Origin: Nodosilinea sp. FACHB-131
Lineage (GTDB): Bacteria > Cyanobacteriota > Cyanobacteriia > Phormidesmidales > Phormidesmidaceae
Assembly (NCBI RefSeq): GCF_014695395.1
Contig: NZ_JACJOF010000007.1
Span: forward strand, 186,001 to 250,000
DNA: 64,000 nt
Direction: 5' to 3'
Made by a program: the position numbers and the translations under genes
The notes under the pieces: model-generated
What the model was told of the DNA's origin: nothing
Databases searched by the model: none
Seen by the model: only the letters and a program-made list of their open reading frames with translations
Shown: one piece after another, positions 44,096-44,986 of the stretch
How the letters are laid out: every line of letters starts with the position of its first letter
Numbering within the stretch: position 1 is the stretch's first letter

Positions 44096-44986
44096 ATGAA
44101 AACTAAGCAATTTATCCTACTAGGGGCTCCTGGCGTGGGGCTAAAGGCCCAGGCGGCGGCGCTAGCCGAACGCTGGCAGGTTCCCCATGTGGCTATGGGG
44201 GAACTGGTTCGTGGGGCGATCGCTGCCGAGACCGCGATCGGCGTAGAGGCTCGCCCCTACGTAGATGCAGGCCAGCTGATTCCCGATGCGTTGGCAATGA
44301 AGCTGATCCGCAAGCGGTTCGAGCAGCCCGATACGATGCTCAAAGGCTGGGTTTTAGAAGGGTTTCCGCGCACGCTAGCGCAAGCCCAAGCGTTTGATGA
44401 GTGGTGGACCGCGGTGGGCCAGCCACCGGCAACGGTGGCCTATCTCAAAGCGCCACCCGAGTTTTTGATCATTCGGCTCTTAAACGAAAGCAGCGAAAAG
44501 CCGCCAATTTCAGCTATTCGAGAGCATTTAGAGAGTTTTCAGCAGTCGTTAGAGCCGTTGCTTGAGCACTATCAGCAGCGATCGCAGCTCGCCACTATCA
44601 ATGCCAGCCTATCGTCTGCGGAGGTGGCCAGTGCCCTGGCCCAGCTCGGTCAAGAAGACACGGGTGCCGCTAAACTGATTCGCGATGAAGCCGAACTCGA
44701 TACGCTGCTGGCCAGTGAACCCTTGCTAGTGGTCGATTGTATGGCGTCTTGGTGTGGCTCTTGCAAACAAGTAATGCCGTCGATCGATAAGCTGGCCGAG
44801 GCCTATGGCGATTCTGTCAGGGTGATGAAGATCGACTTTGATGCTAATCGGCAGATCACCAAGCGATTTGAACTGAAGGGAATCCCTGCGGTGATGTTCT
44901 TTAAAGACGGTGAGCGGTTAGAAACCCTAACTGGCGTCAAGTCGTACCAGGAATACAGTGCAGCGATAACTCGTCTATTAGCCTGA
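44096..44986 (+). CDS. Adenylate-kinase-like/thioredoxin fusion
   Basis: 296 residues. Residues 1-185 are an adenylate-kinase-like fold: FILLGAPGVGLKAQA where canonical AK has GxPGxGKGTQ, so the P-loop Lys is replaced by Leu with Lys one position later and Thr by Ala; GWVLEGFPRT (84-93) is intact. The LID region (about 128-140) is short and lacks the usual arginines. Residues about 195-296 are thioredoxin with WCGSC (219-223) and cis-Pro in GIPAVMFF. Catalysis by the kinase half is doubtful; the thioredoxin half is likely active. It stands alone, 110 bp from the operator palindrome region. Confidence 0.88.
   Translation: MKTKQFILLGAPGVGLKAQAAALAERWQVPHVAMGELVRGAIAAETAIGVEARPYVDAGQLIPDALAMKLIRKRFEQPDTMLKGWVLEGFPRTLAQAQAFDEWWTAVGQPPATVAYLKAPPEFLIIRLLNESSEKPPISAIREHLESFQQSLEPLLEHYQQRSQLATINASLSSAEVASALAQLGQEDTGAAKLIRDEAELDTLLASEPLLVVDCMASWCGSCKQVMPSIDKLAEAYGDSVRVMKIDFDANRQITKRFELKGIPAVMFFKDGERLETLTGVKSYQEYSAAITRLLA

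Follow-up and report, generated by a model that had tools for sequence, protein, structure and literature searches.

A predicted pseudo-adenylate kinase joined to an active-type thioredoxin in a group of filamentous cyanobacteria

The window analysed here is a stretch of 64,000 nucleotides from Nodosilinea sp. FACHB-131, and one of its genes joins a degenerate adenylate kinase (AK) to a thioredoxin (Trx) in one reading frame. Its parts are as follows:

44096..44986, + strand: AK-Trx fusion gene, 296 aa plus stop, ATG start; relatives span both halves in 37 of 63 genomes of the family
44096..44653, + strand: predicted pseudo-adenylate-kinase half, aa 1-186; Pfam ADK match, AlphaFold2 model aligned to AK structures
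44123..44155, + strand: degenerate P-loop GAPGVGLKAQA, aa 10-20; the stand-alone form is GxPGxGK(G/S)TQ
44357..44371, + strand: EGFPR, retained AMP-pocket block, aa 88-92; the equivalent of R88 is kept in 35 of 39 fusions
44474..44527, + strand: LID region without R123, R156, D158 and D159, aa 127-144; the equivalent of R119 is aa 127
44681..44980, + strand: thioredoxin half, aa 196-295, of the DCxAxWC subfamily (Pfam match and Trx tree)
44750..44764, + strand: redox active site WCGSC, aa 219-223; CxxC occurs in 41 of 41 fusion ORFs

Both halves are recognized by Pfam (ADK, aa 8-163, 113.1 bits against a cut-off of 26.8; Thioredoxin, aa 201-291, 76.8 bits against 23.5), and the fusion protein has no Pfam match to a CBS or CP12 domain. 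The best 25 of 42 NCBIfam families all score below their own cut-offs; the fusion reaches 157.9 bits with PRK02496 (adk; equivalog cut-off 262) and 79.8 bits with TIGR01068 (thioredoxin; equivalog cut-off 96.8). Elsewhere the same genome (6.16 Mb, listed as 100% complete) carries a separate adk gene, which passes PRK02496 at 281.1 bits, and nine further thioredoxin matches; its CBS and CP12 matches lie at separate places, never in one protein. A frame error or chimeric assembly as the source of the fusion is ruled out, because relatives of both halves recur together across the family, in a single open frame except in one genome (G344).

The fusion is carried by filamentous cyanobacteria of one group. 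Conservation of both domains together, proposed as a check by the initial annotation, was found in 37 of the 63 genomes of the window's own family (this genome included), in 9 of its 14 genera, and in 30 of 45 when the family is restricted to genomes with completeness of 90% or more and contamination of 5% or less. Of 388 genomes sampled across the class, at least 38 have a match into both halves among the matches listed (E values to ~9e-36): 36 of these belong to the same family and two to a second one (G028, and G003, in which the end of a contig truncates the gene). Three partial class-wide matches with internal stops (G240, G271 and G142) proved to be stand-alone Trx genes. A scan of named genomes by exact peptide words, a method that could miss AK-Trx fusions of separate origin in other bacteria, returned 37 loci. 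Both halves are matched in 24, every one bearing a cyanobacterial title and most being of Leptolyngbya or Nodosilinea type; in the remaining 13 the match is chiefly to Trx, beginning at residue 139 in one and at residue 157 in another. The carriers include Leptolyngbya sp. PCC 6406 and Nodosilinea nodulosa PCC 7104; PCC strains can be obtained in culture. The viral scan found no full fusion, the best 80 of at least 361 relatives matching the Trx part only; nor did the plasmid scan, in which coverage of the query reaches 80% in a single record, a two-gene pair in Nodularia described below. One metagenome-assembled fusion (L015:1376-2284, the same sequence as L067, from G344) has an in-frame stop in its AK part, perhaps an assembly fault or a pseudogene.

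Across 34 fusion loci (some of them the same genome twice), counting families present in at least five, no neighbour of the fusion is conserved beyond close relatives; therefore, no partner can be named for it. The commonest real neighbours occur in eight loci, namely the window and seven others (L001-L007) whose fusions are at least 84% identical. Another family seen at eight loci is an antisense reading of the fusion itself.

The state of the kinase site was scored in E. coli AK numbering (reference from NC_000913). Merging fusions identical over their last 200 residues reduced 72 to 41 distinct ones, and three short pieces (the two parts of L015, plus L090, which lies at a contig end) were excluded from the domain set; of the 58 AK-only frames found, one is the first part of a broken fusion, so that the true stand-alone AKs number 57. 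Residues were compared between 39 fusions and these 57; their functional roles are established adenylate-kinase knowledge. In the window the AK half has lost K13, G14 and T15 of the P-loop (now L, K and A), the LID residues R123, R156, D158 and D159 (E, S, K and P), T31 (M) and R167 (H); it retains G7, P9, G10, G12, R36, G85, F86, P87, R88, Q92, R119 and R165, and has Glu for D84. Thus the reading of Leu in place of the P-loop lysine and Ala in place of the threonine was correct, as was that of a kept GFPR block.

The same losses run through the family. The Walker-A lysine K13 is found in 0 of 39 fusions and in 57 of 57 stand-alone AKs; its column holds V in 28, L in 5, G in 3, A in 2 and C in 1, one fusion (L091) having no alignable P-loop ahead of it. 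R156 is likewise absent from all 39, T15 and R123 survive in two each, D158 in five, D159 in none (three gaps) and T31, of the AMP pocket, in one, against 57 of 57 for every one of these in the stand-alone enzymes. By contrast with these, all 39 fusions keep R119, 38 keep Q92, 37 G85 and 35 R88. R167 is present in 32 (His in the window), G12 of the P-loop in 29, R36 in 25 and D84 in 19. The 57 stand-alone enzymes have R119, Q92, G85, R88 and R167 without exception. At the 46 positions that are at least 95% identical among the stand-alone AKs, median retention in the fusions is 0.77. The eight positions least retained are D159, K13, R156, R123, T15, D158, T31 and G155; R119, Q92 and G85 are among the best retained and R88 (0.90) stands in the upper half, and the ranking is much alike with 27 sequences less than 80% alike. 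As the phosphotransfer residues rank lowest and R119, Q92 and G85 among the highest, phosphotransfer appears to have been erased selectively.

The initial annotation had supposed that the P-loop lysine was displaced by one residue, as the window alone might suggest. Across the 39 fusions the next position holds K in 13, R in 8, E in 7, A in 4, N in 3, and D, S, Q and G in one each; because it varies in this way, the lysine is lost, not displaced. The same column bears on the supposition that the half is an active kinase by another route, an adjacent lysine or other residue doing the catalysis in an ordinary or altered-specificity bifunctional enzyme. The basic residue found there in 21 of 39 is what such an enzyme might use, but the remaining 17 with E, A, N, D, S or Q and the one with G could hardly do so, and T15, R123, R156, D158 and D159 are mostly or wholly gone as well, so that an active kinase is scarcely credible. 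Of the LID, said to be reduced and to lack arginines, only part held: R123 and R156 are gone, but the length is that of the aligned ordinary cyanobacterial AKs, equally short, and the arginine at the LID base, R119, is universal. What has gone from the LID is arginines and aspartates. Fused homologues with an intact GKGT P-loop, set beforehand as counter-evidence to a pseudo-kinase, number 0 of 39, and the pseudo-kinase state proposed from one gene extends to the family. The counts show a kinase site that is, as judged from its residues, dead throughout the fusion family.

Loss of catalysis might mean simply that the AK half is a decaying relic, a passenger losing function since the fusion. 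The missing catalytic residues would fit, as would an N-terminal part that is shortened or divergent in a few fusions (L024, L091) and the in-frame stop of the one metagenome-assembled copy. Selection and fold tell against it. By a simple pairwise Nei-Gojobori estimate, median dN/dS over 66 pairs of 12 close relatives is 0.115 (0.057-0.183) in the AK half, against 0.065 in the Trx half; a set of six genomes (15 pairs each) gives 0.098 for the AK half of the fusion and 0.025 for the housekeeping AK. The AK half is constrained, yet less than the housekeeping enzyme. Many of its residues are invariant in an alignment of 24 sequences, and the AlphaFold2 model made from that alignment (which omits L015) has a mean pLDDT of 87.4 and a pTM of 0.63, at which the orientation of the two domains is uncertain. 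Structure comparison covered aa 2-189, sequence comparison being used for the Trx half; aa 3-188 align with known AK structures, human AK2 (2c9y) giving Z 24.0 and rmsd 2.5 over 185 aligned residues. A half whose model remains that of an AK and on which purifying selection acts (dN/dS near 0.1) is a maintained pseudoenzyme, and with the fusion present in so many genera of the family, mere decay is very improbable.

The Trx half, described at the outset as active-looking, keeps that description. The CxxC of all 41 fusions is WCGSC in 31, WCGPC in eight, WCSSC in one and WCGAC in one; in the window, Asp precedes WCGSC and a proline stands in the cis-Pro place, for which a loose pattern matches 41 of 41. 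The half is thus predicted, from an intact site, to be of active type. A third cysteine ahead of the CxxC, in the motif DCxAxWC, is present in 41 of 41 fusions and in 16 stand-alone Trx that group with the fusion halves; the pattern also matches two unrelated Trx. The DCxAxWC subfamily is split from other Trx with tree support of 100/99. Within the tree a long planctomycete branch (L037) falls among the fusion halves, which therefore need two label changes; the share of the 200 bootstrap trees that unite them on one side of a branch is only 8%. Among the named cyanobacterial clades (TrxA, A3, B, C and Q), TrxC has a WCGLC site, as given in the available part of PMC6262485, which the subfamily lacks; the subfamily may correspond to TrxA3, a cyanobacterial Trx clade described in the portion of PMC9025218 at hand. 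A stand-alone DCxAxWC Trx is also encoded in the window's own genome, 50% identical to the fusion half, to which six other Trx of this genome are 19-31% identical. It lies (L131:7679-8035) between genes that look, by eye, like those of an NDH-1 subunit and a glycogen synthase; no CBS-CP12 cluster surrounds it.

One way to understand how such a protein came about is to look at separate genes for close relatives of both halves, which lie side by side in a patchy cyanobacterial cluster. The cluster runs multi-CBS protein, recombinase-domain protein, AK, (ferredoxin), Trx, unknown protein, CBS-CP12, and was located at:

L081:3065-8062
L082:4029-8379
L083:388-4762
L256:3181-8765

The first three (in G189, G203 and G344) have an AK gene, a ferredoxin gene, a DCxAxWC Trx gene, a short unknown protein and one or more CBS-CP12 proteins, and on the other side of the AK a short recombinase-domain protein and a four-CBS protein; domains were tested with Pfam in L082 and assigned by similarity in L081 and L083. 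Their AK has all the residues scored, and the cluster Trx passes TIGR01068 (97.9 bits against 96.8). All three genomes carry the fusion elsewhere, that of G344 being the interrupted copy. The fourth cluster is on a plasmid of Nodularia spumigena UHCC 0039, where AK and Trx (publicly annotated as nucleoside monophosphate kinase and trxA) are separated by 210 bases that contain no annotated gene; the proteins encoded after them match CBS and, partially, CP12. This plasmid is typed as mobilizable, and an IS5-family transposase lies inside the cluster. Its AK (L256:5998-6654), a 58th stand-alone one, keeps K13, T15, R123 and R119, and has Ser for R88, His for R156 and Ile for T31; partial degeneration therefore also happens without fusion. 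Trx and CBS-CP12 occur together without an AK at two loci, L087 (Pfam-tested) and L146 (by similarity). In all, a CBS-CP12 relative is nearby at 6 of 20 stand-alone DCxAxWC Trx loci, and an AK at four of these six, in a set that is not random, as L081-L083 were chosen for their AK matches and some stretches are short.

The AK tree agrees with an origin from such a pair: the fusion halves (39 of 96 rows) form one side of a branch with support of 100/100, beside the cluster AKs. Placement of the fusion with the housekeeping AKs was not rejected (p-AU 0.147), so that descent from a cluster AK is favoured only, not forced. A reduced tree was built by thinning fusions more than 80% alike (string-similarity ratio) from 39 to 28 and keeping every second of the 49 other stand-alone AKs (25); in the best such tree the Nodularia AK lies outside the fusion-plus-cluster group, and holding all of them together was also not rejected (p-AU 0.373). 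A second AK lineage, which has a GKST P-loop and is placed close to the cluster AKs, comes from another cyanobacterial family (L103, L105, L106 and L107; G188, G195, G229 and G222); the stretches around three of these genes (L148, L149 and L150) showed neither a Trx nor a CBS-CP12 relative, two of the contigs ending a short way from the AK. An AK and Trx pair like those of the CBS-CP12 clusters is the probable source of the fusion. The simplest account is that the AK gene and the Trx gene of the cluster became one gene, after which phosphotransfer was lost.

What, then, might a dead kinase do at the front of a thioredoxin? Most likely it is a docking or regulatory module for an active-type Trx. 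In this proposal, an AK gene additional to the housekeeping one would have merged with the atypical Trx gene beside it, the two being arranged as in the CBS-CP12 clusters; the AK half would then have lost phosphotransfer and would make no ADP, its role being a non-catalytic one, either to guide the Trx to a particular partner or to make access to Trx targets depend on a ligand. The favoured putative ligand would be an adenine nucleotide, most plausibly AMP, held in the retained pocket of G85, R88, Q92 and R119. Taken whole, as a maintained pseudo-AK joined to an active-type Trx, with AMP the ligand favoured, this reading is held as probable. Points that weigh against it are the want of conserved neighbours around the fusion gene, the own genome's stand-alone Trx lying outside any such cluster, with CBS and CP12 matches apart from each other, and the faster evolution of the AK half compared with the housekeeping AK.

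A second perspective supposes a pure scaffold, in which the AK half binds no nucleotide and is only a protein-protein docking or solubility domain for Trx. The erosion of G12, D84 and above all T31 in the fusions would follow naturally, and the half offers no internal substrate: no conserved cysteine was found in it by counting, most halves having none or one, and a Cys pair as internal Trx target is ruled out, since the recurrent Cys, counted at index 0-1 for 12 of the 39 rows, is a trimming artefact upstream of the ATG. Against this, R88, Q92 and R119 are kept at 90-100% and the phosphotransfer residues at 0-13%, a disparity that exceeds obvious folding needs, although G85-R88 and Q92 may be kept for folding; a scaffold of this sort is rather unlikely. 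Residual AMP sensing by the AK half is possible, to go by the residues retained; with T31 in one of 39, R36 in 25 and His for R167 in the window, AMP binding may be gone too. The more specific version, an adenylate-gated Trx in which AMP or another adenine nucleotide in the dead kinase pocket would change the disulfide targets that the tethered Trx can reach, is accordingly put forward as a tentative and, on present showing, unlikely one. For a link between adenylates and redox at all, which had been raised at the start, there is circumstantial evidence in the stand-alone AK and Trx relatives beside CBS-CP12 genes at four loci.

An open question of regulation is how photosynthetic cells bring together adenylates, as a measure of energy status, and ferredoxin-thioredoxin, as a measure of redox status, and the fusion ties one energy module to one redox module, with the chemistry of the kinase apparently erased and its fold kept. 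A dead AK retained as the front half of a working-looking Trx hints at a direct link between energy state and redox switch. If the Trx were indeed gated, energy charge would directly tune redox control of carbon metabolism within one polypeptide, in parallel to CBS-CP12. The stand-alone pair beside the CBS-CP12 genes offers a natural before-and-after comparison for the fusion.

Pseudoenzymes are already known, as are fusions of Trx, CP12 and CBS; the combination of a predicted dead AK with Trx was not found described. The initial annotation knew of no such system, and a search of the open-access literature, with most subscription papers outside it, found no AK-Trx fusion either. The cyanobacterial housekeeping AK (PRK02496) has in common with the fusion its fold, short LID and GFPR block, but the fusion lacks the phosphotransfer residues, carries a Trx half and falls below the PRK02496 cut-off. 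The pairs of L081-L083 and L256 are near relatives of each half in the same order, AK then Trx, but are two separate genes with the P-loop lysine intact, and in L081-L083 a ferredoxin gene lies between them. The AK of Chlamydomonas ADK3 is active. ADK3 resembles the fusion in being an AK with a redox-regulatory appendage, which is, in the accessible part of PMC9406205, a CP12-like tail interacting with GAPDH, not a Trx. NTRC, as the available text of PMC9025218 has it, also puts a Trx module on a partner enzyme, this being a flavin reductase (NTR-Trx) rather than a dead AK; Nme8 and Nme9, in the accessible section of PMC7024210, have a Trx domain on proteins of the nucleoside diphosphate kinase family, again not a dead AK. 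Chloroplast CBSX proteins were proposed to enhance Trx, and a later study saw no effect of CBSX with AMP in vitro on reduction of Trx f/m targets (both from the available portion of PMC7921703). CBS-CP12, according to the part of the review PMC9406205 at hand, binds AMP and inhibits thioredoxin activation of PRK; it resembles the fusion in joining an adenylate-binding module to a redox-regulatory one, with different domains.
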